DNA of 43,195 nucleotides. Origin: an uncultured Methylopila sp. (GTDB lineage: Bacteria > Pseudomonadota > Alphaproteobacteria > Rhizobiales > Methylopilaceae). How positions within the stretch are numbered: position 1 is the first letter of the stretch; each line of letters starts with the position of its first letter. Location of the stretch: NCBI GenBank assembly GCA_902168115.1, contig CABHPB010000076.1:1-43195 (forward strand), written 5' to 3'. This document shows, one piece after another, positions 15,991 to 22,596 of this stretch. Below the pieces are notes generated by a model. That model was given only the letters and a program-made list of their open reading frames with translations, searched no databases and was not told the origin of the DNA. The translations under genes and the position numbers were made by a program.

Positions 15991-16908
15991 TCAATAGTCC
16001 CAGAACGCTGGCACCCAGCGGAACGCGTCGCCATCGACCGCTACCCGGCCGACCGACGGGAACGGCAGATGTGTCGCGACCAGTTGCTCGCCGCTCGCCG
16101 CCAGCTCTCTCAGAAGACGAAGCCTGACGAGGGTGGCCTCTTCCGGATCGTGCTCGAAGCCGTTGTGCCAGTCGGGATGATCAAACCCGACCGTGAAAAC
16201 GGCGTCGCCGGCGAACATGAGCTTTTCGCCGCGGGACCTTATACGGACGACGCTGTGCCCGGGCGTGTGGCCGCCAGTGCGCTGGACGATTACTCCGGGC
16301 GCCACCTCGTGCTCGTCCTCGAACGTGCGCAAATTTTCACGATAGTCCTCCGCGAACCGCTTTGCGGCCGCCTTCAGCGCATCCGGAAATCCCTGCGGCA
16401 TCGCGGTGCGGGTGAAGTCGGGCGACTGCCAGAACTCGACCTCGGCGGCTGCGACGTGGATCCGAAGGTCCGGGCGCAGCCGTTCCTTTATCCCTTCGAC
16501 GATCAGCCCGCCGACATGGTCCATGTGCATGTGGGTCAGAATCACGTCGGTGACGGACGCGAGGTCGATCCCGGCAGCTTCGAGGCGCATGACCAGCTGC
16601 CCCGCGCGCGGCAGGTTCAGATCTGGATCGAAACCAAGACCGGCGTCGATCAGGATTGTCTGCTCGCCACTGCGCGCCACGACCACGTTCAGCGACCAGT
16701 CGAAGGCCTCGCGCGGCAGAAACATGTCGTCCAGCCAGGCCGTCCGGTCGGCCGGATCGGCGTTGTGGCCTAACATCTTGGTCGGAAGGGGCAGCACCCC
16801 ATCGCTCACCACCAGCACGTCGATATCGCCGATCCGCACCGCATAGCGCGACGGAACCAGGTCGCTGGGCTTCGGTAGACCGGCCCCGACAGCATTGCTC
16901 ATGTCCAT
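15991..16908 (-). CDS. MBL-fold metallo-hydrolase, lactonase/AttM-like group
   Basis: A 305-residue metallo-beta-lactamase-fold enzyme. The zinc ligands are visible: HMHMDH in ILTHMHMDHVGGL (about 126-138), His in GGHTPGHSVVRI, Asp in MFAGDAVF and the C-terminal His in ATHLPFPSVGRV. The spacing and the IDAGLGFDPDLN segment fit the group that includes AHL lactonases and related hydrolases; the substrate is unknown. GAGGGA stands 7 bases before the ATG at 16908. It is divergent from the membrane protein/ECF41 operon, and a TGTCACA-17-CGTC pair in the shared gap points toward it, so it may belong to the ECF41 regulon. Confidence 0.85.
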   Translation of the reverse strand: MDMSNAVGAGLPKPSDLVPSRYAVRIGDIDVLVVSDGVLPLPTKMLGHNADPADRTAWLDDMFLPREAFDWSLNVVVARSGEQTILIDAGLGFDPDLNLPRAGQLVMRLEAAGIDLASVTDVILTHMHMDHVGGLIVEGIKERLRPDLRIHVAAAEVEFWQSPDFTRTAMPQGFPDALKAAAKRFAEDYRENLRTFEDEHEVAPGVIVQRTGGHTPGHSVVRIRSRGEKLMFAGDAVFTVGFDHPDWHNGFEHDPEEATLVRLRLLRELAASGEQLVATHLPFPSVGRVAVDGDAFRWVPAFWDY

Positions 16909-17036: not shown

Positions 17037-17064
17037 GACGAGTTGGCCGTCGTCGGATGTGACA
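17037..17064 (-). promoter_or_regulatory. Candidate ECF41 promoter toward the MBL hydrolase
   Basis: On the minus strand TGTCACA (17064-17058) is followed after 17 bases by CGTC (17040-17037). This matches the ECF41 consensus elements TGTCACA and CGTC, with one base more between them than in the other two sites of this locus. It would give a leader of about 120 bases before the ATG at 16908. Confidence 0.5.
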
Positions 17065-17166: not shown

Positions 17167-17193
17167 TGTCACATCGAGCGCCGTTCGCTCGTC
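17167..17193 (+). promoter_or_regulatory. Candidate ECF41 promoter of the membrane protein-sigma operon
   Basis: TGTCACA (17167-17173), 16 bases, then CGTC (17190-17193). These are the -35 and -10 elements described for ECF41 sigma factors. Transcription would start about 25 bases before the ATG at 17226 and read through the membrane protein into the ECF41 gene, giving autoregulation. Confidence 0.72.
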
Positions 17194-17225
17194 CTGGCCC
17201 CGACCATTCCGTTTGGGACCTCATC

Positions 17226-17621
17226 ATGACCAAAGCCATTCTCGCGTTCGCGATCCTCTTCGGCGCAGGCCTTGCGGCGAACGGCTTCTATATGCTGGCC
17301 GACCCGCAGGCTTGGTACTTGGCCGTGCCGGGAGTGACCACCACCGGACCATTCAACCAGCACTTCCTCCGCGACATCGGACTGATTTTCGTGTTCCTCG
17401 GATCGGCATTCGCCCTGGGCGCAGCGCGCCGCGACGTCCGCCCGTTGCTGTGGGGCGCGGGGGCAGTCTGGCTTTCGGGCCACGCGCTGTTCCACTTCTG
17501 GGAGGTCGCGGCCGGGATCTGCGGACCCGACGCGCTGTTGCGGGACTTTCCCGCGGTGACCACGCCCGCGCTTCTCGCGATCGCCCTCACGGTCTGGTCG
17601 GTGCGCCATGCCGACCGCTGA
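17226..17621 (+). CDS. Small four-helix membrane protein upstream of ECF41 gene
   Basis: A 131-residue membrane protein with about four helices: ILAFAILFGAGLAANGFYML, DIGLIFVFLGSAFALGAA, LLWGAGAVWLSGHALFHFWE and TTPALLAIALTVW. Between helices 1 and 2 lies the periplasmic-looking loop PQAWYLAVPGVTTTGPFNQH. I recognise no named family with certainty. Its last 14 bases overlap the start of the ECF41 sigma factor gene, so the two are coupled. ECF41 factors lack a classical anti-sigma factor; this protein could be a target of the regulon or an unrecognised sensor, and the sequence does not decide. Confidence 0.75.
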   Translation: MTKAILAFAILFGAGLAANGFYMLADPQAWYLAVPGVTTTGPFNQHFLRDIGLIFVFLGSAFALGAARRDVRPLLWGAGAVWLSGHALFHFWEVAAGICGPDALLRDFPAVTTPALLAIALTVWSVRHADR

Positions 17622-18504
17622 CGAGGCTACGAACGCCTTCGAGGCGGAACGGGCCCGGCTTGTGCGGCTCGCCTACCGCATGCTCGGCTCGCTCGGAGAG
17701 GCCGAGGACGTCGTGCAAGACGCATGGATCCGCTGGCGGCAGGTCGACCATGCCGTGGTCGCCTCTCCGTCGGCCTTTCTCTCGCGCACCGTCACGCGGC
17801 TCTGCCTCGACGTCATGAAGTCGGCGCGCGTTCAGCGCGAGGCCTATTTCGGGACCTGGTTGCCGGAGCCGCTGGCGATCATGCCCGAAGAGGATCTCGC
17901 CGACGACGTCACCCTGACGCTGATGCTGGCGCTCGAACGGCTGTCTCCGCTCGAACGGGCGGCGTTCATCCTCCACGACGTCTTCGGTGTGCCTCTCGAC
18001 GAGGTCGCGACCACGCTCGAGCGCGAGCCCCCGGCCGTTCGACAGCTCGCGTCGCGGGCGAGGAAGCACGTCCAGACCGCGAAGCCGCGGTTCCCGGTCG
18101 ATCGGGAGGAAGGCGCGAGGATCGCAAAAGCGTTCTTCGAGGCGTCGGCCTCCGGCGACGTCGCCGCACTTCGCTCGATGCTGGCGGCGTCGGTGGTGGT
18201 GCATTCCGACGGCGGCGGAAAGGCGCACGCTTTCCCGCGGCCGATCATCGGCATCGAGCGCGTGTCGCGGATGTTCGAAGGCGTGGCGCGCAAGTCGTGG
18301 ATCCAACAGGCGCGCAAGCTGCAGGATCTCTGGATCGACGGCCTGCCGGGCTATTTCAGCCTGGAGCCGGGGAACGCGTTCCAGACGGTGGCTCTGGAGA
18401 TCGAGAACGGCCTCATCGTCGGCATCTACTTCACGCGCAATCCCGACAAGCTGGCGCGTCTCGTGGAGCGCTTCGGCGACGGCGCCTCCGCGACGGCCCA
18501 TTAA
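17608..18504 (+). CDS. ECF41-type RNA polymerase sigma factor with C-terminal NTF2-like domain
   Basis: A 298-residue extracytoplasmic-function sigma factor. Region 2 covers about residues 10-75 (YRMLGSLGEAEDVVQDAWIR) and region 4 about 108-160 (LERLSPLERAAFILHDVFGV, then VRQLASRARKHV). Two marks place it in ECF41: the linker motif WLPEP (84-88) and the C-terminal NPDKL (278-282), at the end of a SnoaL-like extension of about 125 residues that in this group tunes sigma activity in place of an anti-sigma factor. ECF41 genes usually neighbour carboxymuconolactone decarboxylase, oxidoreductase or epimerase genes; here an epimerase-like NAD-binding protein lies next door. It probably drives its own operon and its neighbours from TGTCACA/CGTC promoters. 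Confidence 0.93.
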   Translation: MPTADEATNAFEAERARLVRLAYRMLGSLGEAEDVVQDAWIRWRQVDHAVVASPSAFLSRTVTRLCLDVMKSARVQREAYFGTWLPEPLAIMPEEDLADDVTLTLMLALERLSPLERAAFILHDVFGVPLDEVATTLEREPPAVRQLASRARKHVQTAKPRFPVDREEGARIAKAFFEASASGDVAALRSMLAASVVVHSDGGGKAHAFPRPIIGIERVSRMFEGVARKSWIQQARKLQDLWIDGLPGYFSLEPGNAFQTVALEIENGLIVGIYFTRNPDKLARLVERFGDGASATAH

Positions 18505-18510
18505 GAAACG

Positions 18511-18951
18511 TCAACGCCGGGCGATCGCGAGCTCCGCCCGGCAGGCGCTGGAGAAATCGCAGAGCGGGTCGAGGTCTCCGGCGGGCCGAATGTCCGCGAA
18601 GGCGGCGAGGTCCTTGTCCGGCGAGAAATAGGTCTCGCCGATGCGGTGCATGACGCGCTCGGCCTCCTTCAGCGTCTCCGGCGCGCCGAACAGGCGGATC
18701 TTGCTGACAAGCGCATAGAGGTTCACGAGCTTCGCCGGATCGTCGAGCCCATGCCGGAACGCGTCGCCGAACAGGGTGGACGCCTCCCGGATGAACTCTC
18801 CGTACAGCGCCTCGCGCCTCGCGCGATCCTGCACCAGCAGCGTCGCGCGTTGCTGGGCGTGCTGCGTGACCCAGGTCGTCGCGAAGGACGCGAGCGCGCC
18901 GATGGCCGAGCCCGCAAGCGCGGCGAGAGCCGAGATGTAGGCCGCGTCCAT
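18511..18951 (-). CDS. Membrane-anchored protein of unknown function
   Basis: A 146-residue protein with one N-terminal membrane helix (AALAGSAIGALASFATTWV, about residues 11-29), then a helical soluble part (ATLLVQDRARREALYGEFI, DPAKLVNLYALVSKIRLFG). The type, a short anchor followed by a charged helical bundle, is a common uncharacterised one. It starts 14 bases after the epimerase-like gene on the same strand and so belongs to that transcript, under the ECF41-type promoter at 19776-19802. It converges on the sigma factor gene with only 6 bases between the stops. Confidence 0.75.
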   Translation of the reverse strand: MDAAYISALAALAGSAIGALASFATTWVTQHAQQRATLLVQDRARREALYGEFIREASTLFGDAFRHGLDDPAKLVNLYALVSKIRLFGAPETLKEAERVMHRIGETYFSPDKDLAAFADIRPAGDLDPLCDFSSACRAELAIARR

Positions 18952-18965
18952 CGGCGCCGCCTCCG

Positions 18966-19724
18966 TCAGGCCGCGCGCTTCGGCTGCGCCGCGAGCCAGT
19001 CGCTGAAGCGCTTTTCCGAGAGCCAGGCGTCGCCCTCGGGCGTCAGCGAGCGGTCGTCGATGACGACGCCAAAGTAGTCCGCCGTGTCGTCGGTCATGAC
19101 CTCCTTCGCCTCGCCCACGCCCTCGAAGTAGCGCTTCACGAGTTCGGCGAGCGGCATCTTCTCGGGGCCGGCGATCTCGATCATTCCATTCAGCGGCTCG
19201 GCGAGCGCCGCCTCCGCGACCTTGGCCGCGACGTCGGCCGAAGCGATCGGCTGGATCGCGGCCGAGGTCGCGCGGGCCACGCCGTCCGCGACGGCGGCTG
19301 CGGCGATCGCGGCGACGAACTCGAAGAACTGGGTGGCGCGCACCAGCGTCCAGGGCACGTCCGCAGACGCGATCAGCTCCTCTTGGGCGAGCTTGGCGCG
19401 AAAATATCCGCTGTCGAGCAGGCGCTCGGTGCCGACGACCGACAGCGCGACATGGTGAGCGACGCCCGCGGCTTTCTCGGCGGCCGCAAGGTTGCGGCCG
19501 GCGCGGACGAAGAAGTCCATGGCGGTCTCGTCCGCGAAGGACGGCGAATTGGCCACGTCGACGACGACGCTCGCGCCTTCCAGCGCCTGAGCGAGGCCCT
19601 CGCCGGTGACGGCGTTTACGCCCGAGTTCGGCGAAGCCGCGACGACCTCGTGTCCCTTGGCCTTCAGCGTCGCGACGACCTGAGATCCGATGAGCCCGGT
19701 CCCGCCGATGACGACGATCTTCAT
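18966..19724 (-). CDS. NAD(P)-binding epimerase-like protein (atypical SDR, NmrA-like)
   Basis: A 252-residue Rossmann-fold protein: MKIVVIGGTGLIGSQVV with the nucleotide loop GGTGLIG (7-13), then VVDVANSPSF, HHVALSVVGTERL and WTLVRATQFFEF. The active-site YxxxK is present as YFRAK. This is the NAD-dependent epimerase/NmrA type of the COE group that typically accompanies ECF41 sigma factors. The start at 19724 is chosen because GGAG lies 6 bases upstream and because the candidate ECF41 promoter (-10 at 19779-19776) would start transcription downstream of the earlier possible start at 19775. The substrate is unknown. Confidence 0.88.
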   Translation of the reverse strand: MKIVVIGGTGLIGSQVVATLKAKGHEVVAASPNSGVNAVTGEGLAQALEGASVVVDVANSPSFADETAMDFFVRAGRNLAAAEKAAGVAHHVALSVVGTERLLDSGYFRAKLAQEELIASADVPWTLVRATQFFEFVAAIAAAAVADGVARATSAAIQPIASADVAAKVAEAALAEPLNGMIEIAGPEKMPLAELVKRYFEGVGEAKEVMTDDTADYFGVVIDDRSLTPEGDAWLSEKRFSDWLAAQPKRAA

Positions 19725-19775
19725 GTGACGCTCCATGTGTGGCTTCGTCCCCCAATTCGGGACGGTCGCGAGCAA

Positions 19776-19802
19776 GACGAAGCGGCTAGGCGCGGTGTGA
19801 CA
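19776..19802 (-). promoter_or_regulatory. Candidate ECF41 promoter of the epimerase-like gene
   Basis: On the minus strand TGTCACA (19802-19796), 16 bases, CGTC (19779-19776): the same two elements and the same spacing as the site in front of the sigma operon at 17167. The start codon at 19724 is about 50 bases beyond the -10 element. Confidence 0.75.
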
Positions 19803-20862: not shown

Positions 20863-21366
20863 TTACTTCAGCCGCAGTCCTGCTCGATCCAAGACCATCA
20901 CAGAGACTGGGATCCCTCGTTTCACGCTTTCAGAAACCGTGCAGAAGCGCTCGAACTGATCGAGCACCCGGTCGATCCGGTCCATCTCGCCGGCGTCGTT
21001 TCCGAGCAAGATGGCGACTTCGATGCTATCGACGCGCAGCCGGCCTTCTTCATTGCGGCCGATCTCGCATTGGGCCTCAGCGCTGACGCCGCGCGTTTCC
21101 TGACGGAATTTGCGAAGCGCGAACACCATGCTGGCCAGAAGGCAGTTAGTGACGCCCGCCAAGAGCAGCTGTTCGGGAAATGGACCGTCCCCGCCTCCAA
21201 TCGGGGGAGCTTCATCAACAGCCAGCTCAACAAGCGAAGGCCCGAAGTCAACGAGAAAACGAAAATCGTCGACGTGCCGGATGCGGATGATGGGCTTTGA
21301 TGCGGGTCCGGTCATGGTCGGCGAAACGATAGATACTGAAGCCGCGGCAGTCGGCAACCTAGGCAC
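20863..21366 (-). CDS. OsmC family protein
   Basis: A protein of up to 167 residues of the OsmC/Ohr type, which reduce organic or fatty-acid hydroperoxides with a Cys pair. FLVDFGPSLVELAVDEAPPI, the loop GGGDGPFPEQLLL, the first Cys in GVTNCLLASM and the second in FERFCTVSESV are all visible, so the redox pair is present. The start is uncertain: a GTG at 21366 has GGAAGA upstream, whereas an internal ATG at 21315 (MTGPASKPIIRI) fits the usual family length better but has no clear ribosome binding site. It stands alone between small genes and the integrase remnant. Confidence 0.82.
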   Translation of the reverse strand: MPRLPTAAASVSIVSPTMTGPASKPIIRIRHVDDFRFLVDFGPSLVELAVDEAPPIGGGDGPFPEQLLLAGVTNCLLASMVFALRKFRQETRGVSAEAQCEIGRNEEGRLRVDSIEVAILLGNDAGEMDRIDRVLDQFERFCTVSESVKRGIPVSVMVLDRAGLRLK

Positions 21367-21405: not shown

Positions 21406-22410
21406 TTAGGGTCGTCGCGCTGGGCGATAGCCGAGCCCCTCGCACCTGAGCTGATCGTGTGCGTCTCTTCCGATGATGCGCGCCGCGCCGTCGAATTGAG
21501 GCGGCGCGTCGGAGAAGCGACGGATCGCCGTTGAAGGCGTTCCGTGACGGTTAGGGGTTTGGAATGCTGGCGTCACCGGGCTCTTTTGGAGCGCTTTCTG
21601 GACTGTTAGCTGGGTCTTGGGGAGAGTTGCGACGGTCGCAGCGCTCTGTTCGGTGAGGGAGGCCGAAGCGACCGTCGGCCCCGAAGGCCGCACTTCCATC
21701 GCGCCCATCGGCGGCCGCGAGGCGTTCGCTATGAGTTGGGAGACGGCTTCTTCCACCAGTTCCTCGTACGGAAGATCGTCGCCGGTGTCGTTTGCGCTTC
21801 GTAGTAGCGCTTCGCCGAGCGCGCGGTAGTAGTAGGTCCTTGACGCACTGACGTTGCGCGCATTGATTTCCGCGCCGACGCCTGCCAGCAAGCGCTCGAT
21901 TTTTCCGGTCGACTGCGCAGACCTTGACGCTTGGCGAAGAACGGCGAGTTGCGACAGAACCCGATCGCTCTCGGCGTCCGAGAGGCCGCGGCTGGCGAGG
22001 GATTCTCGCTCTCGCGTGTCGGTCAGATCGCCGCCGTTTCCCCCGAACTGCGAGAGCAATCGGTAGGCTTGTCCTTGGACGCGCTCGATGTCCGCAATCT
22101 CGTCAAGGCGGCGACCGTCCGAACGGTCGATCTCATTCAGCGCCATCAGCTTTGTCAGATGCTGGGTGAAGGCTGTCTTGAACAGATCGTGCGCTTGGGC
22201 GCTCGTGAGGATGGAGGGAATTGGCATGGCGAACAGGGTTTCGGCGAGGGCCGACAGTTGCACCGCCCGGAACCGCGCGGTCCGCGAATCCATCGTGCGC
22301 AGAGAAATTTTCAGGTGCGATCGTCCGATCCGGCAAGCGATTTCCGATGGCGGCCGGCGGCGCCAGTAATAAACGGCGCCGCGGCGCTCGAGACTGCTCA
22401 GGAGGGGCAT
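21406..22410 (-). pseudogene. Truncated tyrosine integrase (N-terminal part, DUF6538)
   Basis: A 334-residue frame whose N-terminus, MPLLSSLERRGAVYYWRRRP then KISLRTMDSRTARFRAVQLS, is the DUF6538 arm-type domain of phage/island integrases. A SAM-like helical region follows (IDRSDGRRLDEIADIERVQG). The C-terminal catalytic domain with R...HxxR...Y is absent, and the last 100 or so residues look like unrelated sequence, so the gene has lost its catalytic half. The ATG at 22410 gives the family start; an earlier one at 22458 adds a random-looking tail. It lies 111 bases beyond the 3' end of tRNA-Gln, the classical place for an island integrase. Confidence 0.75.
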
Positions 22411-22521
22411 GCGCGGACTTCCTGTGTCCCTATCGCGTGTCCCAGGTCTGTGCCCCACGGCGTGTGGAGGCTACTCAGCCAGATCGCAAAGCCACTCAGT
22501 CTCTTGGGGTCGAGAGATTCT

Positions 22522-22596
22522 TGGCTGGGGCGGGAGGATTCGAACCTCCGCATGGGGGAATCAAAATCCCCTGCCTTACCGCTTGGCTACGCCCCA
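22522..22596 (-). tRNA. tRNA-Gln (TTG)
   Basis: A 75-base tRNA on the minus strand with encoded CCA. The acceptor stem TGGGGCG pairs with CGCCCCA, discriminator G. The D arm is GCC-AAGCGGTAA-GGC, the anticodon stem GGGGA/TCCCC with loop TTTTGAT (anticodon TTG), and the T arm GGAGG-TTCGAAT-CCTCC. All stems pair perfectly. The truncated integrase lies just downstream of its 3' end, so this tRNA probably served as an integration site. Confidence 0.97.

Follow-up and report, generated by a model that had tools for sequence, protein, structure and literature searches.

We analysed a stretch of 43,195 nucleotides, here called the window, from an uncultured Methylopila sp. (contig CABHPB010000076.1 of assembly GCA_902168115.1) and found that it carries the gene of an ECF41 sigma factor together with three putative promoters of the type described for this family. 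It is highly probable, as judged from the DNA, that this sigma factor governs an autoregulated regulon through these promoters. The genes concerned encode a metallo-beta-lactamase-fold hydrolase (MBL), a membrane protein (MEM), the sigma factor, an epimerase-like protein (EPI) and a small, probably anchored protein, arranged as <MBL< P P >MEM>sigma> <anchored<EPI< P, so that the operon of EPI and the anchored protein is convergent to the sigma gene (Table 1). The sequence shows that the three sites exist, that the pattern is rare elsewhere in the genome, and that close relatives conserve the sites, which there are associated with an adjacent ECF41 gene. An autoregulated local regulon had already been proposed in the initial annotation of this DNA; it stands as the best reading, with a third arm, that of the MBL gene, which had been missed.

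Sites were defined as exact matches to TGTCACA-N15-17-CGTC. The two promoters of the initial annotation, before MEM and before EPI, are both real; exactly 16 bases separate their elements, and the window contains no other N16 match. The mean in 100 shuffles was 0.04, and no shuffle contained two. The pair was incomplete, however, as the third site before the MBL gene had been overlooked. For the N15-17 pattern, a first-order random model gives an expected mean of 0.03 in the window, where three are present. A genome-wide search for the pair, which the initial annotation had proposed as a check for frequent random occurrence, yielded five matches in the whole 4.10 Mb genome. Three of them fall within this 2.8 kb, and the other two (L001, L002) are located at 3' ends of genes and not before starts, as read from lists of open reading frames without annotation, so that random copies of the pair ahead of genes are not frequent. 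Nine genomes of the same genus without this sigma orthologue contain 0 to 4 exact sites each, and such a background might suggest that chance or base composition created the pattern. However, three exact sites so close together, all before genes and matched at the orthologous promoters of relatives, make an artefact of this kind extremely improbable.

Table 1. Genes and putative promoters of the ECF41 locus (positions in the window).
Feature	Position	Strand	Basis or remark
MBL-fold metallo-hydrolase, AidB-lactonase-like	15991-16908	-	Pfam Lactamase_B E 1.7e-25; NCBIfam AidB 131 bits, below cut-off 360
ECF41-type putative promoter TGTCACA-N17-CGTC	17037-17064	-	128 nt before MBL start codon
ECF41-type putative promoter TGTCACA-N16-CGTC	17167-17193	+	32 nt before MEM start codon
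MEM, 131-aa membrane protein, four long helices	17226-17621	+	14 bp overlap with sigma gene
ECF41/SigJ-type sigma factor, C-terminal SnoaL-like extension	17608-18504	+	Pfam, NCBIfam, SigJ alignment
Small, probably anchored protein, hydrophobic N-terminal segment, second gene of EPI operon	18511-18951	-	No Pfam or NCBIfam match
EPI, NmrA/epimerase-like NAD(P)-binding protein	18966-19724	-	NAD_binding_10 E 7.8e-9, NmrA E 3.4e-8, Epimerase E 5.8e-6
ECF41-type putative promoter TGTCACA-N16-CGTC	19776-19802	-	51 nt before EPI start codon

Relatives were compared in a first set of 28 fetched loci plus the window segment, and in a second set for which an alignment search with MEM gave 526 relatives, the best 80 named loci being kept. 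The full cluster is present in L014, L015, L016 and L067, whose sigma orthologues are 87% identical or more, and sites precede MBL, MEM and EPI in all four. Counted per genome, G007 has three exact sites, all at the locus, and G014, G015 and G186 have five, seven and four, respectively, with three at the locus each. Promoters were compared in 18 close orthologous loci, the four full-cluster genomes among them, and in the window. Every examinable promoter carries the exact site, i.e. 18 of 18 for MEM, 19 of 19 for EPI and 14 of 14 for MBL; these counts leave out the MEM promoter of L102, which is cut off upstream, and the loci L094, L096, L100, L101 and L113, whose fetched stretches yielded no MBL gene. 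The list was built from exact matches alone, so the conservation of the elements within the list is given by construction, and the informative point is that none is missing. While a T precedes CGTC in all 51 compared sites, the spacer and flanking columns are mostly variable, and the presence of sites at all examinable promoters despite this divergence supports a local autoregulated regulon. The initial annotation had also relied on the identical spacing of its two sites, an argument that we had to reject. The EPI spacer has 17 bases in 18 of the 19 promoters and 16 in the window alone, the MBL spacer has 16 in 12 and 17 in 2 of 14, and just the MEM spacer has 16 throughout (18/18). Since orthologous spacers switch between 16 and 17 and 16 +/- 1 is the published rule, equal spacing carries no weight.

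The sites also go together with the sigma gene. We counted as an adjacent ECF41 gene a tblastn match of at least 40% identity in the fetched flanks, and for EPI, MEM and MBL we accepted sites up to 200 bp before the gene. Among the best 80 MEM loci, 27 have an adjacent ECF41 gene; a module-gene site is present in all 27, compared to 4 of the 53 loci without such a gene (L112, L124, L141 and L153; in one more locus, L127, a site lies inside an EPI-like gene). In 25 of the 27 it precedes EPI, MEM or MBL, and in the other two (L111, L139) it precedes, at the head of the cluster, the gene of a carboxymuconolactone decarboxylase/AhpD-type protein (CMD; PF02627). This near restriction of the sites to loci with an adjacent ECF41 gene supports the regulon.

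Several observations weigh against this interpretation. The association in the 80 loci has a Fisher p of 2e-17, which is descriptive only, as the genomes are related. An ECF41 gene elsewhere in the genome is found in all four exceptional cases but also in 7 of 8 comparison genomes; this decides nothing, and a trans-acting ECF41 factor was set aside as an uninformative explanation of the exceptions. In the 28-locus set, 17 loci have an ECF41 gene, most of them more distant, with an exact site in 8 and none in 9. The latter (L018, L078-L082, L085, L087 and L088, of which L079 is cut off upstream of MEM) encode sigma factors that are 41-60% identical and may use variant promoters; the second ECF41 gene of the window's own genome is among them. 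The CMD genes of the ECF41 loci L156 and L169 lack an exact site, and a TGTCACG-N16-CGTC variant is readable there. For the ECF41 factors of B. licheniformis and R. sphaeroides, only a single target transcript each was described, and three genomic matches to the motif proved inactive when tested (PMC3426412). The MBL promoter lies farther from its start codon (128 nt) than the other two. Finally, the second ECF41 gene (C125:736-1596; L012, L018), 52% identical, could share the promoters.

The distance of the MBL site, its N17 spacer and the single targets of the ECF41 systems studied so far, as far as the passages describe them (PMC3426412, PMC6180224), would fit a sigma factor that uses only the EPI promoter and/or its own, the MBL site being inactive or served by another sigma factor. 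We consider this unlikely, since the exact site precedes all 14 MBL orthologues of the close ECF41 set, also where the gene lies elsewhere, and is absent from six MBL-bearing loci with a winged-helix/TPR regulator (L128, L134, L135, L146, L147, L163). The MBL gene adjoins MEM in Methylopila-type loci and lies beyond EPI in Methylobacterium and Methylorubrum, where it has its own site (L095, L097, L099, L102, L103, L105, L106, L114, L120).

The second ECF41 factor might be the one that uses the promoters, alone or jointly with the first. Apart from its presence in the genome, the four genomes with a module site and no adjacent ECF41 gene would agree with this, as an ECF41 factor would be required in trans if the site is active. 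On the other side, the sites go with the adjacent gene in the 80-locus set, the C125 gene has no exact site upstream (the best match, 10 of 11 positions, is 563 bases before the gene), and G012, which has such a paralogue and not this locus, contains four sites that are scattered. A role of the paralogue at these promoters is thus very unlikely, and the adjacent sigma factor is the preferred candidate.

The assignment of this protein to ECF41 in the initial annotation was confirmed. It matches Sigma70_r2 (E 2.3e-14) and Sigma70_r4_2 (E 1.4e-12) in Pfam, and about 140 residues follow sigma4, where the family has an extension of about 100, with a weak match to SnoaL_2 (E 0.00069, 20.6 bits against a Pfam cut-off of 27). 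The NCBIfam cut-off for the SigJ subfamily is passed (359 bits, cut-off 271), and residues 8-283 of 298 align to SigJ of Mycobacterium tuberculosis (PDB 5xe7, E 8.9e-44). In the translation, WLPEP stands in the linker between sigma2 and sigma4 and NPDKL near the C-terminus; we take the latter to be a family motif, and it is not printed in the text of the 2012 ECF41 paper. The WLPEP linker motif has been described as defining for ECF41 (PMC3426412). The locus combines sigma2 and sigma4, a SnoaL-like extension, WLPEP, a linked gene with NmrA/Epimerase domains and the putative promoter before the ECF genes and the COE genes (carboxymuconolactone decarboxylase, oxidoreductase or epimerase), as in other members of the family.

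In the mechanism we propose, the sigma factor, to which the SnoaL-like domain is fused, would recognise TGTCACA-N16/17-TCGTC ahead of three transcripts. These would encode the MBL hydrolase, MEM with the sigma factor itself, and the EPI oxidoreductase with the anchored protein. By analogy with the family, the C-terminal extension would hold the sigma factor back until some small molecule or condition alters its conformation, and the freed protein would raise its own transcription by positive feedback as well as that of the enzymes. In the published ECF41 factors one part of the extension was described as needed and another as inhibitory, apparently without involvement of an anti-sigma factor (PMC3426412, PMC8999054).

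It could nevertheless be that MEM is an anti-sigma factor, since its gene and the sigma gene overlap by 14 bp and have a common promoter, and since in seven of seven distant MEM relatives (L076-L082) an ECF41 gene lies no more than about 0.7 kb away. No known anti-sigma domain was found among the five neighbouring proteins scanned (Pfam, NCBIfam), but MEM is a membrane protein that is probably cotranscribed with the sigma gene. On the other side, the AlphaFold2 model of MEM (pLDDT 92.2) is mostly made up of four long helices, with no additional domain of notable size. An ECF41 factor was functional in B. subtilis, a species that has none, and the published account found no anti-sigma gene with an obvious link to the family (PMC3426412). 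Moreover, the fetched flanks of 53 of the 80 MEM loci contain no ECF41 gene, and in 49 of these, MEM and an epimerase-like gene are at most 1.1 kb apart, as would be expected of an effector. The persistence of the EPI-MEM pair without ECF41 argues that MEM is an effector and not a dedicated anti-sigma factor, a role that we regard as quite unlikely.

MEM of the window matches no family in Pfam or NCBIfam; among its relatives, 7 of 72 weakly match DUF4345 and 1 of 72 DoxX_2. Against the PDB, the model gave no match at E <= 0.001 (the best, E 0.13, is a designed protein) and the MEM profile no sequence at E <= 1, and the fold was dropped as a clue to function in spite of the good model. H46, D50, H86 and H90 (numbered as in the window protein) are among the residues invariant across 17 diverse MEM sequences, with D50 just nearly invariant in a 72-member set; a redox or metal role would be our guess. 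MEM is matched in 23 of 397 genomes of the order. In one genome of the same genus (G013, L017 5075-5392), only a 27-residue C-terminal piece of MBL is present, next to an incomplete copy of MEM, and the 10 kb contain neither a sigma nor an epimerase match; this looks like a decayed remnant of the cluster.

The third enzyme beside EPI and MEM appears to be exchangeable. In L094, the site at the usual MBL position precedes instead a CMD gene whose product has a CxxC motif, and further exact sites stand before CMD genes in L098, L111, L139, L142, L149 and L162. Eight of the 53 ECF41-less loci have a divergent winged-helix/TPR regulator (L128, L134, L135, L138, L146, L147, L152 and L163; called at more than 60% identity to a query from the genome of L147), and four of the eight (L128, L134, L135, L147) have both an MBL gene and alpha/beta-hydrolase genes. 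In many of the other ECF41-less loci, above all in sphingomonads, a CMD gene lies beside MEM. In L071 (7185-8810) and its relatives L128, L134 and L163, this regulator adjoins the EPI-MEM module and ECF41 is absent, apparently a case of regulator exchange.

There is an even chance, in our judgement, that these loci represent one conserved effector module, i.e. an NmrA-like oxidoreductase, the four-helix MEM with three invariant histidines, and CMD or MBL as an exchangeable third enzyme, which is wired to different regulators in alphaproteobacteria: here to a self-inhibited ECF41 factor with up to three promoters, and in Hyphomicrobium-type genomes to a divergent winged-helix/TPR regulator. Since the EPI-MEM pair travels elsewhere with a CxxC CMD, or with MBL and alpha/beta hydrolases, we tentatively suggest a detoxification or repair module, directed at a reactive small molecule, as the common role of the products; a set of reductase-like, membrane and hydrolase or thiol-peroxidase-like proteins would suit the handling of such a compound.

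If the reading as one effector module holds, ECF41 factors would control true multi-transcript regulons, and a comparison of the regulators would point to a shared signal. A compact regulon with three promoters, whose gene set is kept also outside ECF41 control, would define co-working proteins from which the substrate and the inducing signal could be traced, and the locus would offer a natural set of three promoters for reporters.

A class III nucleotide cyclase gene (PF00211; start codon uncertain) lies downstream of an exact site in L105 (11134-12653) and L166 (4536-6064). This site is divergent to a second-type EPI gene and faces away from the epimerase-membrane protein-ECF41 cluster to which that gene belongs. 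The cyclase is possibly a further kind of ECF41 target.

Within the window cluster, the three domain matches of EPI are all above the Pfam cut-offs, and the anchored protein, which matches no Pfam or NCBIfam family, has a tblastn match in 17 of the 18 close orthologous loci. An OsmC-like gene (20863-21366, minus strand) is located nearby, followed at 21406-22596 by a DUF6538-domain gene and a tRNA-Gln (22522-22596, minus strand). DUF6538 occurs in phage-type integrases, and an old integration site beside the regulon is possible.

The initial annotation called the targets undescribed, which holds only in part. In 2012, ECF41 comprised about 400 proteins in 10 phyla, and its linkage to epimerase genes and the TGTCACA-N16+/-1-CGTC promoter were published then (PMC3426412). 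The arrangement >ECF> <COE< was reported there for 9 of 373 loci, of which 3 had a site ahead of the ECF gene and 4 had one ahead of the COE gene, and no reproducible phenotype was obtained in that first study (PMC3426412). The legend of its Figure 2 mentions some unnamed hypothetical genes with the motif, and a MEM-like gene may be among them (PMC3426412). Induced ECF sigma genes were reported in Sphingomonas wittichii, in passages without a tie to this module (PMC3425912). Family, promoter and epimerase linkage are thus known. In open-licence PMC papers, covered mostly by title and start of the abstract, we found no description of the three-transcript set with MEM and the MBL gene, which appears conserved at the sequence level, nor of MEM itself, the exchange of CMD and MBL or the same module beside other regulators.

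Compared with known systems, the likeness to M. tuberculosis SigJ (PDB 5xe7) is one of protein alignment, which includes the SnoaL-like domain, while host and sequence are distant. The ECF41 factor RpoE10 of Azospirillum brasilense reportedly controls motility and lateral flagella, to go by the title of the study, so ECF41 regulons wider than one gene have already been claimed. RpoE9 of S. meliloti, like the factor described here, is an alphaproteobacterial ECF41 protein with TGTCACA...TCGTC before its target operon; unlike here, a single target is described for it, a carboxymuconolactone decarboxylase whose gene probably shares a transcript with that of the sigma factor (PMC6180224). Ecf41Bli of B. 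licheniformis and Ecf41Rsp of R. sphaeroides have in common with our protein sigma2 and sigma4 with a long C-terminal extension, WLPEP, a linked epimerase, the same promoter and autoregulation where the promoter heads the operon, which at the Methylopila locus would follow from the site before MEM (PMC3426412). Whereas each of them has one target transcript in the published account (PMC3426412), the Methylopila locus has three putative promoters and transcripts, and its gene set also includes the MBL hydrolase and the so far uncharacterised MEM.

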